From NCBI GenBank assembly GCA_031180805.1, contig JAPSLL010000005.1:128512-170978 (forward strand): 42,467 bases of DNA, given 5' to 3'. The DNA comes from Bacillus sp. (in: firmicutes) (GTDB lineage: Bacteria > Bacillota > Bacilli > Bacillales > Bacillaceae). A program made the translations under genes and the position numbers. The notes under the pieces are model-generated. The model was not told the origin of the DNA and did no database searches. It saw only the letters and a program-made list of their open reading frames with translations. This document shows, piece by piece, positions 28,098-42,467 of the stretch (its first letter is position 1; each line of letters begins with the position of its first letter).

Positions 28098-28191
28098 AAA
28101 AAAGGATGAGACGGTGGTGACCCCCAAAAGTTAGATTTTCACTCTAACTTTTGGGTCACCACCGACGCTAAAAGTACGTTTCATCCTTTTT
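28098..28191 (-). terminator. Composite terminator of the two-component operon
   Basis: The outer arms AAAAGGATGAGAC (28100-28112 region) and GTTTCATCCTTTT (28178-28190) pair and give, on the minus strand, a T-run TTTTTTAATC. The long palindrome 28113-28163 is nested in the loop. The right arm touches the stop codon of the kinase gene. Confidence 0.65.
28113..28163. repeat. IS150-like inverted ends joined head to head
   Basis: Left arm GGTGGTGACCCCC followed by AAAAGTTAGA; right arm TCTAACTTTTGGG followed by TCACCACC; only 7 bases between. Apart from two extra C in the left arm the arms pair fully. TGACCCCCAAAAGTTAGA resembles the terminal repeat of IS3-family, IS150-group elements (from memory), but there is no transposase. 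Confidence 0.6.
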
Positions 28192-30409
28192 AAATTTCTT
28201 CTTCTTTATCGAGTAAATCTAAAACAATGGTCACTTTAAATAAATCTCCATCAACATCTAAATCTAATGTTCCTTCATGGAGGTCAATGATTGATTTGGC
28301 GATTGCAAGCCCTAGGCCAGAACCGTCTGTATTACGCGATTTGTCCCCGCGTTTGAACCTTTCGAACAATTCATCCGTATCCTCACTAAGTTCGTATCTA
28401 GAGACATTTTTAAAGATAATGGTCGCCTTATTATTTTCAGTCGTAATTGTAATATAAGCACGAGTGTTTTCTAACGAATACTTAATAATATTGCCAATTA
28501 AATTATCGAATACACGCCAAAGCTTTTGGCCATCAACTAAAGCATATACTGGTGCTTCAGGCTGAGTAACTCGGAATGTTAGGTGTGATTGCTGGATCGT
28601 TTCATTATATTCAGCTAATGCTTGTTGAAGCAATTGAACGATATCTACCTTCACTTTTGTTAATTGGATATTTCCACTTGCCATTTTTGAGGCTTCAAAT
28701 AAATCATCGATTAGTATCTTTAGCCTTTTTGATTTTCGATCAATGATTTCAATATAGCTATTCCGCTCATCAACAGACAAGGTTGGATTTTTCAACAATT
28801 CTGAATAGGTAATGATCGATGTTAACGGTGTTCGTAAATCATGGCTAACATTTGTAATTAATTCTGTTTTTAATCGTTCGCTTTTCGCCTGAGCCTTTTG
28901 TGAAGTTTTCACTCCATGCTTCATTATATTAATATCCCTAGCTAAACTAGCAAAAACTGACTTCCCGATAATTTCTAAATCAGGCTCAAATTGTCCCTTT
29001 GCCAATGCATTTGTATTTGCGAGAATTTTATTAAAATATCCTGTCCGCTTCATTATGAAAAAAAACAATGGGAGTGCGACTAAGAAAAATGCTGGTACGT
29101 AGATTAATAAGAAAACTGGAAAAACAATGACAAGTAATGTCCCAACTCCAAAGAAAAAGACAATCGTCAAAATAATGAATACTTGTGTTCCAACGCGGCG
29201 ATTCAGAAATGCATTTCTAAACATATTCACTATTTGCATGATTAAGGAGTGATTCCAGAATTGTTTATCGATCCGAGAATTTTTTAATCTTGAATATAAA
29301 TAGACTCCTTGAATTAAAGTGATGCCAACAAAAGCTGCTTTAATGATTAAATGGTAAATAATTGTAACGATTAGAAAATCATAATAAACCACATCAAGAT
29401 CAAAAATTAAAAGGATCGCAATATAGGATGTAACAAAAAATAAAACGATCGCAACATCAAGGGGAATTTTCTGATACAGTGACTTCCACGTATCAGGTGT
29501 CAAACTCTTTACCATTCTTTGTTTTTTTCCAATGATAATGCTTATAACAAGTGCAAGTAACGACAATATTGAGTATAACAAAAAAGCTTTTTGTTGATTT
29601 TTATACTCTTGATAGCTTGCAATAATTGCATTCGCGCTTGGAGCATTTTTTGATAGGGCAATTTTCCCTTCTAATATTGCAGATTTCCCGACAGAGTCAT
29701 TGTTTATATTCTCAAGCCCAATAACTAAACCTTGGAAATTTAAATGTAAATATCCCTTTTTCTCACCGTATTCGTGGACATAATACATATTTTCATCATT
29801 TATATACTTATCTATATTAGCTTCGTCTGTTGTTGAAAGGTTTGTATATACTTCACCTGATTCAGTGTCCTTTAAATAATAGGCAAATGCTTCTTTATAG
29901 GTTGAATAGTCTTTGCGATAGCCTTCAAGCTCACGATAATATTCATCAACCCTTTGACTTTTCTCCTTAAGGATTTTTTCTCTAATATATTCATCACTTT
30001 CAAAGTTTTTAGTGATATCTTCTATTTTTTTATCTCGTTCCTTCGTATAGTAATCAATCACCTTTTGATTTTCTTGAACCATCGCTTCATTTATTTTTAT
30101 TTCATATTGTTCTTCAATACTTGCGACTTGATCTGCTAAATCACCATTTTGGTAGCGATACTCTTCAATTTCCTCATTTGTGACAGATAATGAAGAGAGC
30201 GTATCCTCCTTCGATTTATAGTACATTTCAAATGTTTGGATATTCTCTAATAAATGTGATTCAAGGTCTTCATACATTGTTGTTTTAAAATAGCTTGTTT
30301 TCATATATTCATTATTGTTAAAGAACGAGGTGAAGACACCGCTAATTCCAAATGTGAATAAAATAAGCCAAGCTATTATATTCAATCTATTTTTCCATTT
30401 TGTACCCAA
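28190..30409 (-). CDS. Membrane sensor histidine kinase with long extracellular coiled coil
   Basis: 739 aa. TM1 at about 11-29, then an outside domain of some 245 residues including a heptad-rich stretch (about 70-165). Five more hydrophobic segments follow (about 275-294, 318-336, 345-370, 408-430, 432-453). Then a HAMP-like linker, the H-box H523 in NVSHDLRTPLTSI, N-box DNLIGNIIKYSLEN, and G-box DGSGLGLAIAKS. The multi-TM core is unusual for a kinase in an OmpR-type pair. It overlaps the regulator gene by 23 bp from a TTG start at 30409; a TTG at 30385 with GGA upstream is an equally good start. Signal unknown. Confidence 0.88.
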   Translation of the reverse strand: MGTKWKNRLNIIAWLILFTFGISGVFTSFFNNNEYMKTSYFKTTMYEDLESHLLENIQTFEMYYKSKEDTLSSLSVTNEEIEEYRYQNGDLADQVASIEEQYEIKINEAMVQENQKVIDYYTKERDKKIEDITKNFESDEYIREKILKEKSQRVDEYYRELEGYRKDYSTYKEAFAYYLKDTESGEVYTNLSTTDEANIDKYINDENMYYVHEYGEKKGYLHLNFQGLVIGLENINNDSVGKSAILEGKIALSKNAPSANAIIASYQEYKNQQKAFLLYSILSLLALVISIIIGKKQRMVKSLTPDTWKSLYQKIPLDVAIVLFFVTSYIAILLIFDLDVVYYDFLIVTIIYHLIIKAAFVGITLIQGVYLYSRLKNSRIDKQFWNHSLIMQIVNMFRNAFLNRRVGTQVFIILTIVFFFGVGTLLVIVFPVFLLIYVPAFFLVALPLFFFIMKRTGYFNKILANTNALAKGQFEPDLEIIGKSVFASLARDINIMKHGVKTSQKAQAKSERLKTELITNVSHDLRTPLTSIITYSELLKNPTLSVDERNSYIEIIDRKSKRLKILIDDLFEASKMASGNIQLTKVKVDIVQLLQQALAEYNETIQQSHLTFRVTQPEAPVYALVDGQKLWRVFDNLIGNIIKYSLENTRAYITITTENNKATIIFKNVSRYELSEDTDELFERFKRGDKSRNTDGSGLGLAIAKSIIDLHEGTLDLDVDGDLFKVTIVLDLLDKEEEI

Positions 30410-31079
30410 TGCCCCATACCACCTTTAAATATCTTGGATTTTTAGGGTCGATTTCTATTTTTTCGCGGATTTTCCGAATATGAACAGCTACTGTATTTTC
30501 AGCGTTGTAACTTGGCTCATTCCAAACCTTCTCATAAATTTCAGAAATAGAGAACACTCGACCAGCGTTCACCATTAACAATTCAACAATTTTGTACTCA
30601 ATTGGAGTTAGTTTTACAGGCTCTCCATTAACAGTCACTTCTTTTGCTGATTGATCAATTGTTAACCCATTCAAATCAATTACTTTACTCACACCTTCAA
30701 ATGGTCCTAACTGGACGTAGCGACGAAGCTGTGACTTTACCCGAGCAATTAGCTCTAGCGGATTAAATGGCTTCGTAATATAATCATCTGCTCCTACTTG
30801 AAGACCAAGTATTTTATCCGTATCCTCACTTTTCGCACTTAGCATAATGATCGGTATGTTTTTTTTCTCGCGAATTTTAAATGTAGTTGAAATTCCATCT
30901 AACCTCGGCATCATAATATCTAATAGTATAAGATGAACATCCTGCTCAGTTAAAATGTCAATTGCTTCAAGTCCATCCTGCGCCTTTAACACAATGAATC
31001 CTTCGTTTCTTAAATATATTTCAATTCCATCACGGATTTCTTTATCATCATCAACAACTAATACAACATAATTTTTCAT
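30387..31079 (-). CDS. OmpR family response regulator
   Basis: 230 aa. The receiver domain (1-120) has the acidic pocket D10-D12, phospho-acceptor D54 in LILLDIMMP and the switch lysine in LSAKSED. The C-terminal winged helix (about 135-230: VNGEPVKLTPIEYKIVELLM and NTVAVHIRKIREKI) binds DNA. The start is ATG 31079, placed behind a perfect AAAGGAGGG; an in-frame ATT/ATG further upstream would place this site inside the protein. It forms an operon with the kinase downstream. Confidence 0.95.
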   Translation of the reverse strand: MKNYVVLVVDDDKEIRDGIEIYLRNEGFIVLKAQDGLEAIDILTEQDVHLILLDIMMPRLDGISTTFKIREKKNIPIIMLSAKSEDTDKILGLQVGADDYITKPFNPLELIARVKSQLRRYVQLGPFEGVSKVIDLNGLTIDQSAKEVTVNGEPVKLTPIEYKIVELLMVNAGRVFSISEIYEKVWNEPSYNAENTVAVHIRKIREKIEIDPKNPRYLKVVWGIGYKMEK

Positions 31080-31112
31080 ACATACACCCTCCTTTCCAAA
31101 GTATATCAAATG

Positions 31113-31523: not shown

Positions 31524-32558
31524 TTAACGTACTGGTAATGCTCGTAAATCAATTATCTTTTTCGTTTCATTTGATGCTAGAGCAGCTAGTACAACATCAA
31601 GTGATTTTTTCCCTTCCTCGCCAGGTATTAATGGTTCTCTTTCTTGTAGAACAGAGTCAACAAAATGATCGATGACATGTGAATTTGTTTGTCCGCCTTC
31701 TTCGTTTGTTTGGATTTTATCTAACTCATACTTTACAACTTCTCCATTTAAATATTGGACGATTAGTGAGTAATTAGGGTCATCCTCTAATCTTAATATC
31801 GCCTTTTCACCATAAATGATTGTTGAGTTATCACCACCTGTGACATATGACCAGCTTGCTGCCAAAGTTCCAATAACCCCTGATTCCATTTTTAAAATCG
31901 CTACTGCGTTGTCATCTACCTCAGTATTTTCCTTCGCACTTGTTTCAACAAACGCACCTACCTCTGCAACCTCACCTAATAAATAGCGAATTAAGTCTGT
32001 CTTATGTACACCGAGATCCCCCAATGCACCGATAACAGCCTCATCTTTGTTAAAAAACCAGCTATCCCTACCATCAATGCTCCATTTTTCAGGACCGCGG
32101 TGACCAAATGATGTCCGAAAGCTATAGATTTTCCCAATTTCGCCACTTTCAATTAATTGTTTAGCCTTTTGATGTGATGCAACGAAGCGTTGGTTATGCG
32201 CAATCATTAAAGTTCTGCTATTTTTTTTGGCAACTTGAATCATTTCCTCTGCTTCTTCAGAGGTTGTTGCCATCGGCTTTTCACATAGTACATGTTTCCC
32301 TGCATTTAATGCTGCAATTGAGACTGGTGCATGTAAATCATTTGGCAGGCAAACACTAATTGCATCAACCTCATCAAGCTGTAACAGCTCTTCATAATTT
32401 GTAAAAGCCTTTGCCCCGTATTTTTCTGCCATTTCATGTGCACGTGATGAATCAATATCACATACAGCCACAATCTCAGCATTTTTATTAGCCCAATATT
32501 CCACTAAATGTCTAAGTCTTGCAATACTTCCACAACCGATTACGCCAACTCTCATCAT
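31524..32558 (-). CDS. Gfo/Idh/MocA family oxidoreductase
   Basis: 344 aa with the Rossmann opening VGVIGCGSIARLRHL (4-18), the EKP motif at 93-95 (LCEKPMATT) and a C-terminal alpha/beta domain from about residue 120. It should oxidise or reduce an imported sugar with NAD(P). GGAGG precedes ATG 32558 (or the next ATG three bases on). It is the last gene of the LacI-controlled operon, 42 bp after the second permease gene. Together with the TIM-barrel isomerase at the operon start it suggests an oxidative (3-keto-type) route for the imported sugar; this is inference. Confidence 0.87.
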   Translation of the reverse strand: MMRVGVIGCGSIARLRHLVEYWANKNAEIVAVCDIDSSRAHEMAEKYGAKAFTNYEELLQLDEVDAISVCLPNDLHAPVSIAALNAGKHVLCEKPMATTSEEAEEMIQVAKKNSRTLMIAHNQRFVASHQKAKQLIESGEIGKIYSFRTSFGHRGPEKWSIDGRDSWFFNKDEAVIGALGDLGVHKTDLIRYLLGEVAEVGAFVETSAKENTEVDDNAVAILKMESGVIGTLAASWSYVTGGDNSTIIYGEKAILRLEDDPNYSLIVQYLNGEVVKYELDKIQTNEEGGQTNSHVIDHFVDSVLQEREPLIPGEEGKKSLDVVLAALASNETKKIIDLRALPVR

Positions 32559-32600
32559 CGTTTCATCCTCCAGTAAATTAGTTTTTATCCTATTATTTTT

Positions 32601-33422
32601 TTATTCCTTAACAGCTCCACCCGCAAGCCCTTTAACAACCTTCTCTTGTGAAAATAAATACACAACAAGAATTGGTAGACTTGCTAAAGTTAATGCTGCC
32701 ATTAATCCAGGGATATTGACGGAAAACTCGCCTTTAAAATCTTGTAATCCTAATGGTAATGTCATATTTTCCGGACTTGATAATAGGACGAGCGCAAAAA
32801 TGAATTCATTCCATAGATGGATAAAATTGTAGATTAAAACTGTCATTAGAGCAGGGGTCAGCATTGGCAAAATGACTCGCCAAAAGATCCCGAAGTGACT
32901 GCAGCCATCCATTTTCGCTGCCTCCTCCAATGACTTTGGTATTTCCTGCATAAACTGAGTTAAGATAAAGATTGAAATTGGTAAGCTAAAGGCAATATAT
33001 GGTCCTAATAAAGCCCATATCGTATCGAAAACACCCATGCTTTGTGATAGTTTAAAAATCGGGATAAGTGTTGCATGGATAGGTAGCATCATCCCTGAAA
33101 TAAACAGTAAGAAAATGACTTTGTTAAACTTAAATTTCATTCGACTCAATGGATAGCTTGCTAATGAAGCAATAAGCATGACTGCGAAAACAGCTATGAT
33201 GGATACGAGCACACTATTTAAGAAATATCTTGTTAACCCCATTTCGAACACAGATTGAAAGTTTTCTAAATTGAAGGAAGAAAACAATGCAAACGGCTTT
33301 TCAAAAAAATGGCTTTGCGACTTTAACGAGGTTGATAGCATATAAAGAAAAGGGAAACCTGTGAAGACTAATAGTAAGATTGCAAACAAATAGAGTGGGA
33401 TCGTTTTTATTTTACTTGTCAT
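32601..33422 (-). CDS. Carbohydrate ABC transporter permease, MalG type
   Basis: 273-aa inner permease with six membrane segments and the EAA motif EEAAKMDGCSHFGIFWRVILP (core EEAAKMDGCS) that contacts the ATPase. It partners the MalF-type permease, whose gene overlaps it by 4 bp, and the lipoprotein binding protein. No ATPase gene is in the operon, so a shared ATPase such as MsmX is expected. Confidence 0.93.
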   Translation of the reverse strand: MTSKIKTIPLYLFAILLLVFTGFPFLYMLSTSLKSQSHFFEKPFALFSSFNLENFQSVFEMGLTRYFLNSVLVSIIAVFAVMLIASLASYPLSRMKFKFNKVIFLLFISGMMLPIHATLIPIFKLSQSMGVFDTIWALLGPYIAFSLPISIFILTQFMQEIPKSLEEAAKMDGCSHFGIFWRVILPMLTPALMTVLIYNFIHLWNEFIFALVLLSSPENMTLPLGLQDFKGEFSVNIPGLMAALTLASLPILVVYLFSQEKVVKGLAGGAVKE

Positions 33423-34360
33423 ACATAGGCCCCTTTCTTTTTCCGATAATAATCCATCACTTGAATAATGATTGTTACCATTAACGATAAAAAGAACATG
33501 ATAAACGCAATCGCACTTGCATAGCCCATATTAAAATTAATAAACGCTTGCTTAAACATGTAGGTCCCTAGTAGCTCTGTCCCATGGTTTGGTCCGCCAC
33601 CAGTCATAATGTAAAAAATATCAAACGATTTTAATGAACCGACAACAGCCAATATGGAGGAGCTAACAATGGTTGGCATCAACAATGGTAGTGTGATATG
33701 GAAAAACTTCGTTAACGAGCTTGCTCCATCAATTTCTGCGGCCTCATATAAATCCTCCGGAATTCCAACGATTGCTGCTTTAAAGAGAATCATGTAAAAC
33801 GGGGCGAACTGCCAAACTATAACGAGCAATACCGCAAATAACGCCGTATTCGTTTGACTTAGCCACGCAACATTCTCAAATCCAAATAGACTAATTAGCT
33901 GGTTAATTAATCCGTTAATTGGGTCAAACATTAATACCCATAGTAAACCAACTGCAACAGTTGACATGAGAAACGGAAAGAAATAAATGCTACTAAATAG
34001 CTTAATTCCTCTTATTGGCGCAAAAAGCATTAAAGCCATAATTAGCCCTAATGGGATTTGCGCAAAAACAGACGTAAGCACTACCCATGTATTATTTTTT
34101 AGTGCCGTAAGAAAAACCGCATCCTTAAAAAGATTGAGATAATTTTCAAACCCGACAAATACACCAACACCCATGCCATCCCATTCATAAAAGCTGTAAA
34201 TCAACGTATTGATAATTGGATACAACACATACACAGAATAAACAATCAACGCAGGTGAAATAAACAACCCAATTGTAAAAAAGCTCTTCAGCCTCTTCCT
34301 ACCTCTAGAACGCGAAATCACTACACCCCTCGATAAATCAGCCTTAACCGGTGTTTCCAC
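33419..34360 (-). CDS. Carbohydrate ABC transporter permease, MalF type
   Basis: 313 aa with a basic N-terminal tail (SRSRGRKRLKSFF), six membrane helices and the EAA loop YEAAEIDGASSLTKFFHITLP (core YEAAEIDGAS). The stop overlaps the start of the MalG-type gene (4 bp), so the two are translationally coupled. A 186-bp stretch with four GGGGACAGTCCCC repeats separates it from the binding-protein gene upstream. Confidence 0.93.
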   Translation of the reverse strand: METPVKADLSRGVVISRSRGRKRLKSFFTIGLFISPALIVYSVYVLYPIINTLIYSFYEWDGMGVGVFVGFENYLNLFKDAVFLTALKNNTWVVLTSVFAQIPLGLIMALMLFAPIRGIKLFSSIYFFPFLMSTVAVGLLWVLMFDPINGLINQLISLFGFENVAWLSQTNTALFAVLLVIVWQFAPFYMILFKAAIVGIPEDLYEAAEIDGASSLTKFFHITLPLLMPTIVSSSILAVVGSLKSFDIFYIMTGGGPNHGTELLGTYMFKQAFINFNMGYASAIAFIMFFLSLMVTIIIQVMDYYRKKKGAYV

Positions 34361-34381
34361 ATCATCCCCTCCTTATGATGG

Positions 34382-34576
34382 GGGGACAGTCCCCAAAAAC
34401 AAGACTAATAAGACATTTTGTCCTTGTTTTGCTATCTTTGGGGACTGTCCCCATTTGTTATACACTTTTACGTAAAACATCGATTAAATGAACTATACAT
34501 AAGCTTGGGGACTGTCCCTAAAACAAAGTTTAAAACGATGGAATGCTTAGTTTTTGTCTTTTTGGGGACTGTCCCC
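34382..34576. repeat. Array of four GGGGAC(A/T)GTCCCC palindromes
   Basis: Copies at 34382-34394, 34440-34452, 34507-34519 (last base T) and 34564-34576, spaced 57-67 bp. Between the first two, AAAACAAGAC and GTCCTTGTTTT also pair, so the pair can close into a larger stem. The last copy lies inside the binding-protein reading frame. Related copies occur at 2969 and 13871. The array may act as a partial terminator or RNA stabiliser between binding protein and permeases. Confidence 0.8.
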
Positions 34577-35872
34577 TTCTTTTGCTTTTTCTTCCATTTT
34601 TTTGGCTGCTTCTTCTGGTGTCATGTCTTTGCCAAAGATGGCTTGAGTTGTGTCTTTATGCAATTCTGCTAGTTCAGGAGGTAGTGTTTGATCATAAGGC
34701 ATTTGTAGATGTGTTGCATTTTGAACAACGTCGTAAAAACGTTTTGTGAATTCATCAGCTGGCTCAATATCCTTTACTCCTGTAAGACTTCCAGTTCGAT
34801 CTGTGTAGTTTTGAGCTGTTTCTGTGCTTGTCAGCTCCTTTACTAATTCTGTTGCTAAATCAGGATGTTCACTATTTTTCGCTACTGACCAAACCGGTCC
34901 AGTTGCTGCTCCTACATGTGTTGTATCACCTTTGCCACCAGGTACCGTTGGGAATAAAAAGAAATCTAGTTTTTCCTCAAACTCTGGTGCTTCCTGTCTT
35001 ACATTGTTTAAAAACGAAATTGTCATATCCATCATTGCAGCCTGACCTGAGTAAAGAAGTTGACGTCCCTGCCCCTCATCATATGGGACACCGTTAAAAC
35101 CAGAATTAAAGGCATTTCTGTCAACCATCTCTTGAATATATTTCCCTGCTTGAACATAGGCAGGATCATCAAATCCTTTACCCTCCCGATTTATAGCGCT
35201 TTCAAAAAGCTCAGGTCCAGCTATCCTGCTAGCAAAATTCATCAGATAGTATGCACCAGGCCATTTTGTTTGGTTTGCTAATGCAATTGGAATAACATTA
35301 TTTTTATTCAAAGTATCGATTATCGATAGCCATTCTTCATATGTTTTTGGTGGTGTTAAGTTATACTTTTCAAAAATTTCTTTATTATAAAATACAACGT
35401 CAATGGATAAACTCAATGGCAAACCATAGATTTTGCCGTCATAAGTTGAATTTTTCAAGGCTAATTCATTAAAATGAGTAGCATCCGTTTCTTCTGTTAA
35501 ATCAAGCACTTTACCTTGGTCAACGAAGTTTTTCAGCCATCCGCCACCCCAGCTATGGAATACATCAGGAGCCTGGTCTCCACTCATCGCCACAGAAAAT
35601 TTTTGTTTATACGCATCATTAGGAATTTGAAGTGTTTTTACTTCTACATCTGGATGTTTTTCTTTAAATCGTTCAACTGCTTCTAAATAAACTTTTTCTT
35701 TCTCCCCTGAATCGATATACCAAAACTCTAGCTCTTTCTTTTCACTGCTTGATGGTTTCTCTTCTTTGCTGCCTGTTGCAGTTTGATTTGTTGAGCCTCC
35801 CCCATTAAGCCCACACGCAGCTAAAAGAAGTAAGGATAAAACACTGAATAATGAAATGAATCTTTTCAACAT
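34547..35872 (-). CDS. Sugar ABC transporter substrate-binding lipoprotein
   Basis: 441-aa family 1 solute-binding protein. Lipoprotein signal peptide MLKRFISLFSVLSLLLLAAC, with the lipidated cysteine at residue 20, a low-complexity linker to about residue 47, then the two-lobe binding fold (ELEFWYIDSGEKEKVYLEAV; MSGDQAPDVFHSWGG; AAMMDMTISFLNN; ATGPVWSVAKNSEH). It captures an oligosaccharide outside the membrane. Oddity: the last residues GDSPQ (433-437) are encoded by a GGGGACAGTCCCC repeat, so the C-terminal tail seems to come from a repeat insertion. The gene follows the isomerase by 29 bp. Confidence 0.93.
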   Translation of the reverse strand: MLKRFISLFSVLSLLLLAACGLNGGGSTNQTATGSKEEKPSSSEKKELEFWYIDSGEKEKVYLEAVERFKEKHPDVEVKTLQIPNDAYKQKFSVAMSGDQAPDVFHSWGGGWLKNFVDQGKVLDLTEETDATHFNELALKNSTYDGKIYGLPLSLSIDVVFYNKEIFEKYNLTPPKTYEEWLSIIDTLNKNNVIPIALANQTKWPGAYYLMNFASRIAGPELFESAINREGKGFDDPAYVQAGKYIQEMVDRNAFNSGFNGVPYDEGQGRQLLYSGQAAMMDMTISFLNNVRQEAPEFEEKLDFFLFPTVPGGKGDTTHVGAATGPVWSVAKNSEHPDLATELVKELTSTETAQNYTDRTGSLTGVKDIEPADEFTKRFYDVVQNATHLQMPYDQTLPPELAELHKDTTQAIFGKDMTPEEAAKKMEEKAKEGDSPQKDKN

Positions 35873-35901
35873 ACATTTACCCCCCTGTAGGAAAATCGCT
35901 A

Positions 35902-36660
35902 TTATTTCATTATGTTTTGTTTTAAATAGTTGATACTGATGTCAATGCTTTCTAATGGTTCGCGTCTTGACATATCCTGTTCAACGATGAACCATTCGAC
36001 ATTTTGTGAATCCCCTTGTTTAATTGCACTTTCAATATCAACTCCACCAGTTCCTAATTCCGCAAAAAACTGTTCCTCATCTGTTGTCATATCCTTTAAA
36101 TGAAGAAGTGGAGTTCTACCTTCAAGCTTTTTCAGCCATTGAACAGGGTCTTCTCCTGCTCGTGTTAACCAATAAATATCAAGCTCAGCCTTGACCCAAT
36201 CGGGATTTGTTTCTTCAAATAAGAAATCTAATGGCTTTCTTCCATCGTCAAATGGAACTAATTCAAAATCGTGATTATGATAAGAAAACGTAATTCCTGC
36301 TTCCTTACATTTCCTACCTATATCATTAAAAAGCGAAATAAGTTCTACATACGAATCCTTTGTCCGTCTTTCTGGTGGTAAAAACGGGCATACAATGTGG
36401 CGATTTCCTATCGATTGTTGGAAGTCGATAACTTGATTTAAGTCTGTTTCTAATAAAGTAATGGCAACATGACTTGATGCTGCTTTTAAACCAAGGTAAT
36501 CAAGTGTTTGCTTTAATTCATTTGCCGACATTCCACCATACCCAGCAAATTCAACACCCTTATAGCCAAGCTTCGCTATCCTTTCTAACGTGCCTGTAAA
36601 ATCTTTTTCTGTTTCATTTCTTAATGTAAAAAGCTGAAGTGCAATTTGATTTTCATTCAT
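35902..36660 (-). CDS. Sugar phosphate isomerase/epimerase (xylose isomerase-like TIM barrel)
   Basis: 252 aa of the AP-endonuclease-2/IolE-like barrel family. Motifs: IALQLFTLRNETEKDF at the start, GYKGVEFAGYGG, metal-site regions TFSYHNHDFEL and VKAELDIYWLTRAG, TPLLHLKDM, and ELGTGGVDIE. Members isomerise, epimerise or dehydrate sugars and keto-sugars with a divalent metal. GAAAGGAG precedes ATG 36660. It is the first gene of the five-gene operon and lies just downstream of two LacI-type operators. Confidence 0.88.
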   Translation of the reverse strand: MNENQIALQLFTLRNETEKDFTGTLERIAKLGYKGVEFAGYGGMSANELKQTLDYLGLKAASSHVAITLLETDLNQVIDFQQSIGNRHIVCPFLPPERRTKDSYVELISLFNDIGRKCKEAGITFSYHNHDFELVPFDDGRKPLDFLFEETNPDWVKAELDIYWLTRAGEDPVQWLKKLEGRTPLLHLKDMTTDEEQFFAELGTGGVDIESAIKQGDSQNVEWFIVEQDMSRREPLESIDISINYLKQNIMK

Positions 36661-36821
36661 TCAATTTACTCCTTTCATTCTGAGCTTGCTAAATTACACC
36701 ATACGAAATGAAACTTTAGTATGTACCTGTGCAATGCAATAAAAGCTTCACTCGCAGATACTAATTAGCTAGTAATCTACTAAATTGATTAGAGCAATAG
36801 ATCATAATCTTCCCCCATCAC

Positions 36822-36835
36822 TGTAATCGATTACA
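36822..36835. promoter_or_regulatory. LacI operator TGTAATCGATTACA
   Basis: Perfect 14-bp palindrome about 160 bp upstream of the operon start. It also satisfies the cre consensus TGWAANCGNTNWCA, so CcpA could compete for it. Confidence 0.75.
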
Positions 36836-36884
36836 AATTTCTACAAAAATTTTCGCGTTTTTACTGACTATCACCTCCTTAAAA

Positions 36885-36898
36885 TGTAATGGATTACA
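36885..36898. promoter_or_regulatory. Second LacI operator, TGTAATGGATTACA
   Basis: One base from the perfect site, but lacking the central CG that CcpA needs; flanked by AAAA/TTTT so the symmetry extends. It lies 49 bp (to the nearest edge) from the first site and 22 bp after the LacI gene. Confidence 0.7.
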
Positions 36899-36920
36899 TT
36901 TTTATCAGAAGAAAGGACGG

Positions 36921-37925
36921 TTAACTTGTCTCCCTTCCACCACATGAGTCCCTTATTACTAGGTCACTTTCTAGGATGTATTGTGATTTCATCTGTGAAT
37001 TACCCCGGATTTGTTCCAATAGTAATTTCATCGAAAGCTCACCCATTTTATATACAGGCTGGGCAATCGTCGTTAAAGCTGGGTCAAAAATTGATGAAAA
37101 ACTAATATTATCAAAGCCGACTACAGCCAAATCCTTTGGTACGTTAAGACCTCGTTCCTTTGCAGCTTTAATCACTCCCATTGCCATTTCATCATTTGCG
37201 GCAAATACAGCTGTCGGGGGATGCTCCATTGCAAGAAGCTTTAACATTTGATTATAACCAGATTCAAATGTAAATAACCCCTCTTGGACTAGCATGCTAT
37301 CAATCTCTAAATCATTGTGCAGCATCGCCTGCTCATAGCCTTTATATCGATCTCTCGAGCTTGCATATTTGAAAGGTCCACATATATGAGCAATTCGAGT
37401 ATGTCCAAGACTAATTAAATGCTGTACAGCCTTACGACTGCTGCTAATATTATCAATTGATACCGATGGAATTTTTAGGCCGTCAATATAGTCCATCGTT
37501 AAGACAACGGGATGGTTTTCACATAGCTCAAGCAATCGTTTCCTTTCCATCCTGGCAGAAAACAAAATCATCCCATCAGTCTGTTTTTGTTTAAGTAAAT
37601 CGATTAATCCATATTCATTATCAACTTCATTATTTGTATTCCCTAAAAGAACTTTATAATTATTTTTTGAAGCTTCTGCCTCAATTCCCTCGATAATCCC
37701 TAAGAAAACGGTGTTCAATATATTCGGTACGACAACAAGGATTGTATTCGTTTCATTTCTTCGTAGTTGACGTGCTAAAATATTTGGCTGGTATTTTAAA
37801 TCATCAATAGCCTTTAATACTTTCAAACGCGTCTCCTCCTTAACCGTTTCCGGAAAGCGAAGTACTCTTGATACAGTTGCAGTTGAGACATTTGCTAATT
37901 TTGCTACATCACTCATCTTTACCAT
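36921..37925 (-). CDS. LacI family transcriptional regulator
   Basis: 334 aa. The N-terminal helix-turn-helix is MVKMSDVAKLANVSTATVSR with hinge helix QPNILARQLRRNET (about 45-58). The periplasmic-binding-protein-like sensor fills the rest (ILVVVPNILNTVF, SVSIDNISSSRKAV, HICGPFKYASSRDRYKGY, PTAVFAANDEMAMG, AVVGFDNISFSSIFDPALTT). ATG 37925 gives the family start and has GAGGAGA 10 bases upstream; the frame also opens at 37964. Three TGTAATCGATTACA-like operators, one before its own gene and two before the ABC operon, suggest it represses both until its sugar is present. Confidence 0.92.
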   Translation of the reverse strand: MVKMSDVAKLANVSTATVSRVLRFPETVKEETRLKVLKAIDDLKYQPNILARQLRRNETNTILVVVPNILNTVFLGIIEGIEAEASKNNYKVLLGNTNNEVDNEYGLIDLLKQKQTDGMILFSARMERKRLLELCENHPVVLTMDYIDGLKIPSVSIDNISSSRKAVQHLISLGHTRIAHICGPFKYASSRDRYKGYEQAMLHNDLEIDSMLVQEGLFTFESGYNQMLKLLAMEHPPTAVFAANDEMAMGVIKAAKERGLNVPKDLAVVGFDNISFSSIFDPALTTIAQPVYKMGELSMKLLLEQIRGNSQMKSQYILESDLVIRDSCGGRETS

Positions 37926-38011
37926 TATTGCTGATTCTCCTCTTGATGACTCATTTTGTGTCAACGCGTTTTGATCATAGATTAATTATCAGTAAATCTC
38001 GGAACACAAAA

Positions 38012-38167: not shown

Positions 38168-41100
38168 TTATTTCTTTTGACGAAGAGTTTCAACAACATC
38201 AATGCTAGGAGCTTCTGGCTCTTTCATCCCCTCACCTAAGAAAAAGCTAGGATGTGGCGGTTGATTATAGCCGACATTTTGCCAAGCGATCGCAACGCGG
38301 TATTGTGGATCATGCATTAATGTGAAAATACGATGATCGGTTTCTTCAGTCGTCATAAACACTCGAAGTGCGCTGCTATCTTCTGTTCTCCAAATGATTT
38401 CTTCTCTCCAGTCCCCAAGTAAGTCTGCTTGTAATGCAGGAGTTCCCTTAGTTCCATTGTTTGATAATGTTCCTTCTGCAGTTAATAAATTTTCTAGTTT
38501 TCCATTTTCATAGTCCCATTTGTCAATTGTTCCAACTCCGGCACCTTTTGCATCATTATATTGATGATCAGCCAATTCTCTGAGCAGGTCACCGTCCCAC
38601 CAAATAGCAAAGTTTGAGGTTGGGATGCTATCAGATATTTTTTCTCCTTCTGCAGTATGAAGCCCGCCTGTACGACTATTCCACGCACCTGAAATTGCCC
38701 ATGCCTCTGCTCCCTCATATCGGGGATCAATATCAGCTGCAACACCTCTACCAGTATCGATTCCTGTTTTTTGGCCCCAAATGATTTCTCCAGTTGCAGC
38801 ATCTCTCATATCATAGCCATATTCACCTGATTTATTTTCCTGAACAGCATAAACTTCAAGTCCAGGTCTACTCGGTATGAAATCACTGACATGAAGTGCG
38901 TCGCCGTGGCCTAAGCCCGTTGCATACATCCCTTTTCCGTCATCATCGACAACCATTTGGCCATAAACAATTTCATCCTTACCATCTTTATCGACATCCG
39001 CAACACTCAATGAATGATATCCTTGACCAGCATAGGCACTATTTCCTTCATCTGCTGAATCAAATGTCCATTGCTTTGTCAGCTTGCCATCTCTAAAGTT
39101 ATATGCGGTAAGAACTGTTCTCGTATAATATCCTCTTGCCATAATGATGCTTGGACGCTCACCGTCAAGATATGCAACCCCTGCAAGGAAACGGTCTACA
39201 CGGTTTCCGTAGCTATCTCCCCAAGATGCGACATCACCACGTGGCGGCTCATAATTTGTTGTTTGCAATGCCTTCCCTGTTTTCCCGTCAAATACAGTTA
39301 AAAATTCGTCACCTTGCAAAATGTATCCAGAGCTATTGCGATGATCTGCATCTGCTCGTCCGATGACATTTCCTTGTCCGTCAATCGTTCCGTCAGCTGT
39401 TTTCATCACAACTTCCGCTCTGCTATTTCCGTCAAAATCATACACTAAAAATTGAGTATAATGGGCACCTGCACGAATGTTCTTTCCTAGATCGATCCGC
39501 CATTTTAATGTTCCATCAAGCTCATAAGCATCAATATATACATTACCAGTATAACCTGATTGTGAATTATCCTTTGAATTTGTCGGGTCCCATTTTAAGA
39601 CGATTTCGTATTCTCCATCACCATCTAAATCCCCAACACTAGCATCGTTAGCACGATAAGAATATGGATCACCAAGTGGTGTAACCCCATCCTCAGGCTT
39701 TTGAAGTGGTATATCAAAATAATTGTTACTTATCGTCTTTGTTGTTACTTTCTCTTTATCCTTCTTACCCTTTCCTTTACCAACAGCACGAATTTCATAG
39801 GTTGAATTAGCTGTTCCCTTCTTATCTAGGAAATTAGTACTCTCTTTAATTGCTGATTTATTTAGCTTTTTACCATCACGGTAAACATCGAAAGCAATGT
39901 TCTCAGGATCATCCCCTAGTAATCTCCAGCTAACATATACCCCATCCTCTGTTTTTATCGCAACAGGTGCACGTCCTAAATCCTCCATTTGCTTTTTAAG
40001 AACGGTAACTGCTTTAGTCTCTACACTTTTTGAAAGCTCAGAGATTCCTCCTGCATTTACTGCTGCAACTTTGTAATAGTACGGGATAGTTGTTAAAACC
40101 GTCTCATCCTTGTACTTCGTTTTATTCGTTTTGCCAACTAATTGATATTCTCCGTCCTTGCTTTTAGCTCGATATACATTATACGATGTTGCATCCTTCA
40201 CTTTATCCCACTTAATTGTCAGATCGTTTTTATTTACTTTCCCAACCTTGAGGTTTTGCGGCGGGTTTGGAACTTGTACGTTTTCATCAATCATTGCAAC
40301 ATCAAGTGGCAATGAAGGTACGGTTTCAACATTTGCACTATCCACTGTTGTGACCGTATATTGATAATTCATTCCTATATCAACCGTCTCATCTTTAAAT
40401 GAGTTTGTCGTTGAACTACCAACCTTTTCAACATTTGTTGAACCCGCTACATTGCGATAAATATTGTACGATGCTGCGTCGTCAACAGCCTTCCATGATA
40501 ATGTAACAGACGGTTTCGATGTGCTGACAATTTTCTCTTCAACCTTTAATTCGGATGGAGCAAGTAAAATTGGTGTTAATTCAATTCCATTAACAATTCC
40601 TGTTGAACCACCAAAATCAAAGTTCATTTGCCCATCTTTAATTGATACTTGCGGAATAATTTTTTCCGTATAATTTCTACTCGGTGCTGTGACCTGTCCA
40701 TAATCCTGGCCTTCGATTTTCACTGTTGTTCTCGCACTTCCTAAGAAATCACCTACATAAACCTTTACAGCATAAAGACCATTTGCGACATCAACGTTAA
40801 ATTTCCACCCTGCATTGAAATAACCAAGCCAATCACGGAGTAAATCACCGCCAGTTCCACGGTCACGTCCGATCATATTCGTTGAGTCGACGATCCCATA
40901 TCCTCTTTCAGCTGTATAAACCGTTGAAAGATTTACCTCCGTATAACCTTCAGCGACAGGGTTACCAGCAAGTCCAAAATCAAATTTTATTGTTGCTTCC
41001 TTTGTATTAATTGTAACGACATCAGAGTATTCGGATTCACCTTTCCCATTGACAGCGGTTACAACTAAATCATATTTATTTCCTTCTTGAAGACCTGTAA

Positions 41101-42467
41101 TAGTGATTTTTGGTACTGTTGATGTACCAATTAATTTATACTCACTTTCCGTTGATAGCTTCCGATATACCTTGTAAATATCGGCAGTTTCAACTTGATT
41201 CCAAGTTAAAACTGCACCTGCGTTACTTACTCCACTTGCTGTCAATCCAGTAGGCTTGTCCGGAACATTTGCAGGTGGTTGTACATCTGTTACATACGAT
41301 GATAGCGATATATTTAAATCTTTTATACCACCTGAAAGCAATCTTGCAATTTGAATCGCTCCATACTCTTGGAAATGAGTATTATCCTGTGATCCGTTTG
41401 GAAATGCTTGATAAATGCCTGGTTCTGTATGGAGAAATACAGATAACGTTCCCTCTGGACCAATTGAATCATAATATGCGACACTTAACGCACTTAAATC
41501 GACAAGTGGAACATTAAGTTCTTCTGCTACCTCCTTCATCCCTTGAACATATTCAGGAAAACTCACATTGAACTTTCCTGTATCAGCATTAAAATCTCTT
41601 CTGCCAACAGGTGTTACTAAAATTGGTTCTGCCCCACGTTGACGAGCCCCATTAATATAGGTTTTTAAGAAATTTTTATAATCTGGAACTGATGCATACC
41701 TGTCAGGTCTACTAATCGTTGCATCATTGTGACCAAATTGAACGAGGAAATAATCATTTGGCTTAATCTCTCTTAAAATTGCATCTAATCTTCCCTCATT
41801 AATAAATGTTTTTGTGCTTCTTCCACCAATCGCATGGTTCGCAAATGTGACATCATCGCTAAAGTAACGTGAAATCATTTGTCCCCAACCAGCTTCAGGC
41901 TTCCAATACTCATCATAGGTTTGTACTGTTGAATCCCCTGCAATATAGACTGTTAGATGTTCTGTAGCAGCACGCTCAGGGAGCTTTTCGATTATTATCC
42001 CGTTTAATTTAGGTGCAGTTCCTGTCAATTCAATTGTTAACTGACCATCGACAAGGGCAATATCGAATGATCGCTCCGCATATTCACCGGCATTGATCGT
42101 TGTATCCTGGACCTTTTGAATATTTTCTGCCTTTACCCCGATTACAGTATTTTCTGATTCATCACCAGCAACGACTGTAACAGTATAATCGCCATTCGGA
42201 AGGTCAACTTGAAATGGCGTCTCTGTCGTAGTAACAAAATCAGACTTTAATGGATCTGCTGTCCCACGGTCAGTAGCAGTCACCTTTGTTGTATCAACAA
42301 AGCCATATTTTTGCTCTGCTGAATATCCAGAAGCAGGTGATACCTTTGTATATCCCTCCATAACAGCACTATCTTCTGTTCCATAATCAAACTTAAACAT
42401 TGTTGCATCCTCGACAGCGATTTCCTGTGGAGCCATTTGTGCTGATTGTTCAGCATTTGCCTTCTGT
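38168..42467 (-). CDS. Secreted rhamnogalacturonan acetylesterase-lyase fusion (CE12 + PL11), 5' end outside window
   Basis: At least 1432 residues; the frame stays open to the window edge, reading QKANAEQSAQ before the first Met (42436), which looks like a signal-peptide end (ANA cleavage). Numbered from that Met: malectin/galactose-binding-like domain (about 12-152); SGNH CE12 acetylesterase (about 160-375) with S169 in AGDST, IGGRS, FGHND and D351/H354 in DNTHFQEYG; fibronectin III (about 390-480); second malectin-like domain (about 481-625); two fibronectin III domains (about 630-815); PL11 rhamnogalacturonan lyase (about 820-1422), with DASVGDLDGDGEYEIVLKWD and repeated Asp-rich calcium-type loops. 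It should deacetylate and cleave rhamnogalacturonan I outside the cell. B. subtilis encodes these functions separately (YesT, YesW/YesX). Confidence 0.9.
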   Translation of the reverse strand, partial: QKANAEQSAQMAPQEIAVEDATMFKFDYGTEDSAVMEGYTKVSPASGYSAEQKYGFVDTTKVTATDRGTADPLKSDFVTTTETPFQVDLPNGDYTVTVVAGDESENTVIGVKAENIQKVQDTTINAGEYAERSFDIALVDGQLTIELTGTAPKLNGIIIEKLPERAATEHLTVYIAGDSTVQTYDEYWKPEAGWGQMISRYFSDDVTFANHAIGGRSTKTFINEGRLDAILREIKPNDYFLVQFGHNDATISRPDRYASVPDYKNFLKTYINGARQRGAEPILVTPVGRRDFNADTGKFNVSFPEYVQGMKEVAEELNVPLVDLSALSVAYYDSIGPEGTLSVFLHTEPGIYQAFPNGSQDNTHFQEYGAIQIARLLSGGIKDLNISLSSYVTDVQPPANVPDKPTGLTASGVSNAGAVLTWNQVETADIYKVYRKLSTESEYKLIGTSTVPKITITGLQEGNKYDLVVTAVNGKGESEYSDVVTINTKEATIKFDFGLAGNPVAEGYTEVNLSTVYTAERGYGIVDSTNMIGRDRGTGGDLLRDWLGYFNAGWKFNVDVANGLYAVKVYVGDFLGSARTTVKIEGQDYGQVTAPSRNYTEKIIPQVSIKDGQMNFDFGGSTGIVNGIELTPILLAPSELKVEEKIVSTSKPSVTLSWKAVDDAASYNIYRNVAGSTNVEKVGSSTTNSFKDETVDIGMNYQYTVTTVDSANVETVPSLPLDVAMIDENVQVPNPPQNLKVGKVNKNDLTIKWDKVKDATSYNVYRAKSKDGEYQLVGKTNKTKYKDETVLTTIPYYYKVAAVNAGGISELSKSVETKAVTVLKKQMEDLGRAPVAIKTEDGVYVSWRLLGDDPENIAFDVYRDGKKLNKSAIKESTNFLDKKGTANSTYEIRAVGKGKGKKDKEKVTTKTISNNYFDIPLQKPEDGVTPLGDPYSYRANDASVGDLDGDGEYEIVLKWDPTNSKDNSQSGYTGNVYIDAYELDGTLKWRIDLGKNIRAGAHYTQFLVYDFDGNSRAEVVMKTADGTIDGQGNVIGRADADHRNSSGYILQGDEFLTVFDGKTGKALQTTNYEPPRGDVASWGDSYGNRVDRFLAGVAYLDGERPSIIMARGYYTRTVLTAYNFRDGKLTKQWTFDSADEGNSAYAGQGYHSLSVADVDKDGKDEIVYGQMVVDDDGKGMYATGLGHGDALHVSDFIPSRPGLEVYAVQENKSGEYGYDMRDAATGEIIWGQKTGIDTGRGVAADIDPRYEGAEAWAISGAWNSRTGGLHTAEGEKISDSIPTSNFAIWWDGDLLRELADHQYNDAKGAGVGTIDKWDYENGKLENLLTAEGTLSNNGTKGTPALQADLLGDWREEIIWRTEDSSALRVFMTTEETDHRIFTLMHDPQYRVAIAWQNVGYNQPPHPSFFLGEGMKEPEAPSIDVVETLRQKK

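Follow-up and report, generated by a model that had tools for sequence, protein, structure and literature searches.

A fused CE12-PL11 gene at a contig end

The stretch analysed here, referred to as the window, comprises 42,467 nucleotides of contig JAPSLL010000005.1 (positions 128,512 to 170,978 of assembly GCA_031180805.1, deposited as Bacillus sp.). At its far end lies a gene whose product joins an esterase domain of family CE12 to a rhamnogalacturonan (RG) lyase domain of family PL11. The gene is a single open frame of 1432 amino acids on the minus strand (42466-38168), and its 5' end is open where contig C119 also ends. We located the missing part by a DNA search of the same genome, using as query the region upstream of locus L007 of Metabacillus niabensis isolate Q2603, the closest named relative. 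The query matched both the end of C119 and contig C111 at its start; these two ends share an exact overlap of 127 bases. An earlier note on this sequence had proposed a domain search that includes the missing 5' part; C111 supplies it, adding the start codon and 33 further residues for a total of about 1465. Read by eye, the added N-terminus has a basic start, a hydrophobic run and the ending ...SQQKANA, with ANA before the mature part. It looks like a Sec signal peptide, and the protein is putatively secreted. An assembly artefact is ruled out by the recurrence of the full-length frame in independent assemblies.

The domain order, established from Pfam and homology to relatives, is GBD1-CE12-FN3a-GBD2-FN3b-FN3c-PL11, where GBD denotes a galactose-binding-like domain and FN3 a fibronectin type III domain (Table 1). 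In the lyase, RGL11_C scores 861.5 bits (E 2.4e-259; cut-off 27 bits) and RGI_lyase 117.3 bits (E 3.8e-34; cut-off 27.8 bits). Lipase_GDSL matches the esterase at 63.9 bits (E 3e-17), above its cut-off, while AGA-YXIM_GBD (PF21254) and fn3 each match in two stretches. Among solved structures, the C-terminal 600 residues match 4CAG, 2ZUY (YesX) and 2Z8R (YesW) with E < 1e-250, and the N-terminal part matches Bacillus subtilis YxiM (2O14, 3.2e-45) and a fungal RG acetylesterase (1DEO, 1.7e-11). These domain matches lie far beyond chance, and they bear out the earlier claim of a single CE12-PL11 polypeptide. The CE12 label is based on the Lipase_GDSL, 2O14 and 1DEO matches together with published family naming, not on a dbCAN model. 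In NCBIfam the esterase weakly resembles the pectin acetylesterase PaeY, far under that model's threshold (61.8 bits against a cut-off of 1000).

Between the two enzymes, three FN3 domains had been reported. Three are indeed present: FN3a separates CE12 from GBD2, while FN3b and FN3c separate GBD2 from PL11, the middle one of the three (residues 665-745) being below threshold when searched alone. The two remaining modules had been called malectin-like, a label that found no support; both match PF21254. Malectin and CBM35 models gave no sequence match for GBD1 (E up to 1) or for 34 GBD2 sequences (E up to 0.01), and a malectin or CBM35 identity of either module is unsupported at the sequence level. 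GBD2 is a homologue of GBD1 (hhalign E 1.1e-35, 34% identity). YxiM, whose N-terminal domain is homologous to both, is the sole solved structure matched by the GBD profiles below E 0.1; PF21254 itself is the galactose-binding-like family of YxiM and agarase. Both modules are probably carbohydrate-binding anchors for a wall polymer.

The catalytic residues are conserved throughout. The SGNH motifs GDST, IGGRS, FGHND and DNTH noticed earlier are found at residues 177, 213, 244 and 361, and Ser179, Asn247, Asp361 and His364 are invariant in 120 of 120 aligned CE12 rows, 60 of them fused. In PL11, Arg1240, Lys1340, Tyr1400, His1151, His1187, Asp1189 and Glu1210 are invariant in all 108 rows, 60 of which are fused. 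The roles of the arginine, the lysine, the stacking tyrosine and the four calcium ligands come from PMC8787155 and were transferred by spacing and motif, without alignment to the protein described there. Two other positions were considered for the substrate-binding arginine and rejected: residue 1249 is R in 33 fused rows but N in 21 and T in 6, and position 1242 is not an arginine, the invariant one being 1240. As judged from these residues, both catalytic centres are intact in the fused protein. The absence of a CE12 or PL11 match, or the loss of the GDS/DxxH residues, had been named as grounds for abandoning the fusion; because the matches exceed their thresholds and the residues are intact, neither applies.

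Table 1. Window coordinates of the fused gene, its domains and its flanking signal
Feature	Position	Strand	Basis
Fused CE12-PL11 gene	38168..42466	-	1432 codons + stop in window; ~1465 codons with 5' part on contig C111
Signal-peptide-like N-terminus, last five residues QKANA	42452..42466	-	preceding 33 residues on C111 (L177); read by eye
GBD1, PF21254 (residues 24-148)	42023..42397	-	alone 61.5 bits vs cut-off 27
CE12 SGNH esterase domain (residues 173-376; Ser179, Asp361, His364)	41339..41950	-	Pfam + PDB matches
FN3a (residues 403-486)	41009..41260	-	Pfam
GBD2, PF21254 (about residues 494-616)	40619..40987	-	34/34 aligned GBD2 sequences match PF21254
FN3b (about residues 665-745)	40232..40474	-	homology to relatives; alone 18.3 bits vs Pfam cut-off 25
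FN3c (about residues 746-822)	40001..40231	-	homology + Pfam
RGI_lyase beta-sheet domain of PL11 (residues 825-908)	39743..39994	-	Pfam
RGL11_C propeller of PL11 (residues 916-1420)	38207..39721	-	Pfam
Terminator-like hairpin just 3' of stop codon	38107..38136	-	13 pairs, then T run

Separate enzymes of the two kinds are also encoded in this genome. Contig C45 carries a 212-aa CE12-like gene beside a 614-aa PL11 gene, an oligogalacturonate lyase and a PcRGLX-like gene. An 859-aa PL11 with a FIMAH module is found on C111, and there are six Glyco_hydro_88 matches, some of them partial. With separate CE12-like and PL11 genes present, replacement of the separate-enzyme route by the fusion is rejected for this genome. 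The contrast drawn in the earlier note with B. subtilis, which uses separate YesT and YesW/YesX proteins, is not clean, because the window's genome, too, has a CE12-like gene and a PL11 gene side by side as independent frames.

LacI-type regulators and Gfo/Idh-type dehydrogenases lie on both flanks of the fused gene (window 31524-37964; L177 996-5306, on the C111 side, where neighbour genes were named by eye), and the window side also holds an ABC sugar importer and a TIM-barrel isomerase-like gene. These neighbours possibly serve the uptake and oxidation of RG-derived sugars. Further along, a two-component pair at window 28190-31109 finds its best NCBIfam matches in VanR/VanS models, under their curated cut-offs. 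A cre/LacI-operator-like palindrome is located at L177 294-309, about 70 bases upstream of the start codon of the fused gene. With at most one mismatch, and with this site counted on both strands, the pattern has 4 matches in 6 kb against 1.33 expected, a count reached in 11 of 200 shuffles. At the other end of the gene, 2 terminator-like sites were found in 501 scanned bases on both strands (0.2 expected).

Distribution and history of the forward fusion

Judged from its relatives, the window organism is a Metabacillus close to M. niabensis isolate Q2603. Genomes G061 and G052 encode fused proteins identical to those of L007 and M. bambusae (L008), respectively, and the G061 protein shows 98% identity to the window protein from end to end. 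The earlier note had suggested a survey of how widespread this order of domains is, here termed forward (CE12 before PL11). Full-length matches occur in 14 of 80 genomes of the window's family. All 14 belong to the window's genus, which accounts for 21 of the 80, and the other 59 genomes have none; G068, among the 14, contains an internal stop codon. They are rarer at higher ranks, with 5 of 397 genomes in the order and 3 of 398 in the phylum. The full-length forward fusion is also present in 76 of 394 genomes of the family of G482. Paenibacillus and Cohnella belong to this family, as shown by G1130, G1131 and G887, whose fused proteins exactly equal those of P. sambharensis, P. tarimensis and C. 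xylanilytica. The family, order and phylum counts each include the window's own genome, and the order, phylum and G482-family searches scored at most two candidates per genome.

Peptide patterns retrieved 71 named loci, of which 37 carry forward fusions. They come from Bacillaceae, Paenibacillaceae and, among the actinobacteria, from two genera (three Microbacterium and one uncultured Arachnia). Immunoglobulin (Ig)-like and FIMAH modules end 22 of the 37, and one of the 37 is truncated at a contig boundary; neither the window protein nor L007 has this tail. Several Paenibacillaceae forward fusions, of about 2060-2230 residues, have an extra GBD-FN3 block before GBD1 (L037 3843-10538, L034 4140-10361, L028 4413-10595).

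Half-proteins of the same design are found as well. A CE12-less half, GBD2-FN3-FN3-PL11, is present in 13 of 397 genomes of the order. The PL11-less half, GBD1-CE12-FN3-GBD2, occurs in Terribacillus (L035, L038) and G092, and in G415 (L108 1027-4089) this half retains the Ig/FIMAH tail with FN3c-PL11 missing. On the CE12 trees these CE12 halves nest among forward fusions. In some Metabacillus, a single-domain CE12 gene lies just upstream of the fused gene (L008 3655-4506, L011 3801-4613, L080 180-1031), and its product nests among the fused CE12 domains. We read the PL11-less halves as probable losses and the single-domain Metabacillus CE12 as a probable copy out of the fused gene. In G244 (L122 680-5028), two adjoining frames of one strand, GBD-CE12 leading straight into GBD2-FN3-FN3-PL11, form by their gene order a split version of the forward arrangement, though the CE12 is distant on the tree.

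Before tree building we excluded own-genome duplicate loci (L001, L002, L003, L006, L078), exact duplicates, CE12 pieces shorter than 190 aa and PL11 pieces shorter than 520 aa. Reduced trees were thinned by hand to 62 of 108 PL11 rows and 75 of 120 CE12 rows; three CE12 rows were removed as long or odd. Forward rows need 4 changes on the first PL11 tree and 3 on the reduced one. A constraint placing them in one PL11 clade is not rejected by the approximately unbiased (AU) test (p 0.53), and since this constraint stands, many origins of the forward fusion are unneeded.

A reverse-order fusion in relatives

A second fusion carries the two enzymes in the opposite order. At L128-L130 it comprises 2132-2150 residues, arranged as PL11, GBD-CE12, a stretch without named domain, a further GBD-CE12 and Ig-like modules. 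With a 461-residue probe spanning the junction of PL11, GBD and CE12, matches of 460-461 residues were obtained in 84 of the 394 genomes of G482's family. At least 5 of these 84 have open frames shorter than 1400 aa, and G1171, which matched part of the probe only, was left out of the count. The reverse-order fusion, seldom co-occurring with the forward form, is new here; no description of it was found in the literature searched, which covers few subscription papers.

Its different order and the absent linker are the main signs suggesting that the reverse form arose separately. Forward and reverse rows together as one PL11 clade are not rejected (AU p 0.70), and therefore the PL11 tree is no proof of two separate fusions. 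On the reduced CE12 tree, a branch of weak support (Shimodaira-Hasegawa-like approximate likelihood ratio test, SH-aLRT, 83) sets the forward rows, together with 4 half-proteins and 3 single-domain copies, apart from the reverse CE12 rows.

Both forms occur together in 5 of 394 genomes (G965, G1012, G1143, G1147, G1160), against 16.2 expected if they were independent (hypergeometric P 1.4e-4), both values ignoring relatedness. We also built an rpoB tree of 60 genomes of one genus, picked by handle number regardless of label. One clade of 43 contains 19 forward, 23 reverse, 1 with both and 0 with neither; of the remaining 17 rows, 2 are forward and 15 have neither form. Explaining the labels takes 6 changes for forward and 5 for reverse. 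When relatedness was controlled on the rpoB tree, the exclusion was not significant (median sign-test p 0.25); there were 4 independent pairs on starred branches, and with so few the sign test cannot attain significance.

The genomic sites add detail to this pattern. In four forward genomes (G943, G944, G968, G932), the forward gene lies at a common site, with a YcbB-type response regulator on one side and a YaaH-family gene on the other. All nine reverse genomes chosen retain both flanks without the forward gene between them. At this site G963 retains a stretch similar to forward protein residues 1426-1743, with two in-frame stop codons, which by this similarity is a degraded deletion remnant of the forward gene. 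In three fetched reverse genomes (G985, G984, G963) the reverse gene sits elsewhere, beside an AraC-type regulator; a DNA search for this regulator, run without a positive control, found none in 9 of 9 forward genomes.

From these sites we infer that the forward form was displaced by the reverse form. We tentatively propose that the two fusions may be interchangeable, that lineages gaining the reverse form lose the forward one, and that selection might keep the covalent esterase-lyase tether and not its geometry. The existence of two opposite-order fusions that are rarely found together suggests that having both enzymes on one chain is useful.

Proposed function and comparison with known systems

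Taken together, we consider it probable that the window protein is a secreted, modular enzyme with two activities on rhamnogalacturonan I (RG-I). CE12 would take O-acetyl groups off RG-I, and the PL11 propeller would then cut the rhamnose-galacturonate backbone, now deacetylated, through beta-elimination. Both PF21254 modules would bind carbohydrate and keep both catalytic domains on the same wall polymer, and tethering may raise the rate. Coupled deacetylation and cleavage on one chain, as envisaged in the earlier note, is plausible, and it had been published before as a proposal (PMC6339884, PMC10483417).

Several observations weigh against this two-activity reading. The RG-I specificity of CE12 is taken from its PL11 partner, and acetylesterases acting on pectin or xylan also belong to the family (PMC10483417). 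Nor is the tether universal: PL11 is absent from the scaffold in Terribacillus and G415, and in some Metabacillus the fused gene is accompanied by a lone CE12 gene. The window's own genome also has CE12 and PL11 as separate genes, and the exclusion test that controlled for relatedness was not significant. In addition, no enzyme assay of a CE12-PL11 fusion was found in the literature searched, which covers few subscription papers.

Both domains might instead be active but independent, the fusion providing one transcript, one secretion event, shared binding, fixed stoichiometry and co-localisation at the wall, with no need for deacetylation to feed cleavage on the same chain. The long linker between the catalytic domains, with three FN3 domains and a GBD, is consistent with this, as is the fact that PL11 can be missing and CE12 can stand alone. 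The order differs between forward and reverse fusions, so that no exact geometry would be needed. The scarcity of genomes with both forms (relatedness ignored) fits a shared function of the fused state, though it is compatible with independent domains too. We regard independence as possible, if somewhat unlikely.

It is also conceivable that the main substrate of CE12 is a different acetylated polymer of the wall, for instance homogalacturonan or xylan, and that the fusion loosens the wall in general instead of coupling two steps on RG-I. The listed CE12 targets include pectin, RG and xylan (PMC10483417), the esterase has its weak match to PaeY, and YxiM, the best solved relative of the protein's N-terminal part, was deposited as a hypothetical protein. 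Yet the partner is an RG lyase in forward and reverse fusions alike, and the fungal RG acetylesterase 1DEO also matches. We regard this alternative as quite improbable.

If both halves of the proposed RG-I enzyme work, a single protein could break acetylated RG-I, which free RG lyases reportedly handle poorly (PMC6339884); this would be useful for pectin processing and for interpreting soil genomes. The window protein itself is of modest interest. The two opposite fusions in its relatives are the most useful new lead, and the pair offers a natural test of joining two enzymes versus their arrangement.

Comparison with known systems places the window protein among described fusions. In B. subtilis, YesW and YesX, which give full-length matches to the PL11 part, and YxiM, which matches GBD1 and the start of CE12, are separate polypeptides. 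The cellulosomal PL11 and CE12 enzymes of Clostridium thermocellum and Acetivibrio clariflavus combine the same two activities, with a CBM35 beside each, but as separate dockerin-bearing polypeptides joined without a covalent link (PMC4711584, PMC12037645).

Closer to the window protein is Pamy_4308 of Paenibacillus amylolyticus 27C64, an extracellular protein with RG lyase and RG acetylesterase domains described in 2018 (PMC6339884). It is upregulated on RG-I, and direct cleavage of acetylated RG-I was proposed for it, acetylation being said to inhibit the RG lyases characterized to that date. Listed as PL11|CE12|CBM37 at 188.2 kDa, with no order of domains given in the available account, it is larger than the window protein, and its size would agree with the forward Paenibacillaceae form (1743 aa) and not with the reverse form (2132 aa).

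A 2023 study covered 50 sequences with CE12 and PL11_1, proposed synergy between the two, and described one Metabacillus member in detail (PMC10483417). This protein, HUW50_16055 (QNF30995.1) of Metabacillus sp. KUDC1714, belongs to the genus assigned here to the window organism and is given as CE12:CBM35:PL11, with CE12 at 22-440, a middle binding module at 440-644 and PL11 at 806-1423. Its catalytic triad and calcium sites are reported as conserved, as they are in the window protein. The middle module was called CBM35, and its predicted structure was superimposed on a CBM35, whereas that of the window protein matches PF21254. Compared by description, a separate N-terminal GBD is not named in the available account, and the window protein has GBD1. 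The forward architecture and the coupling idea were thus already published (2018, 2023), and the window protein is a further member of this group.

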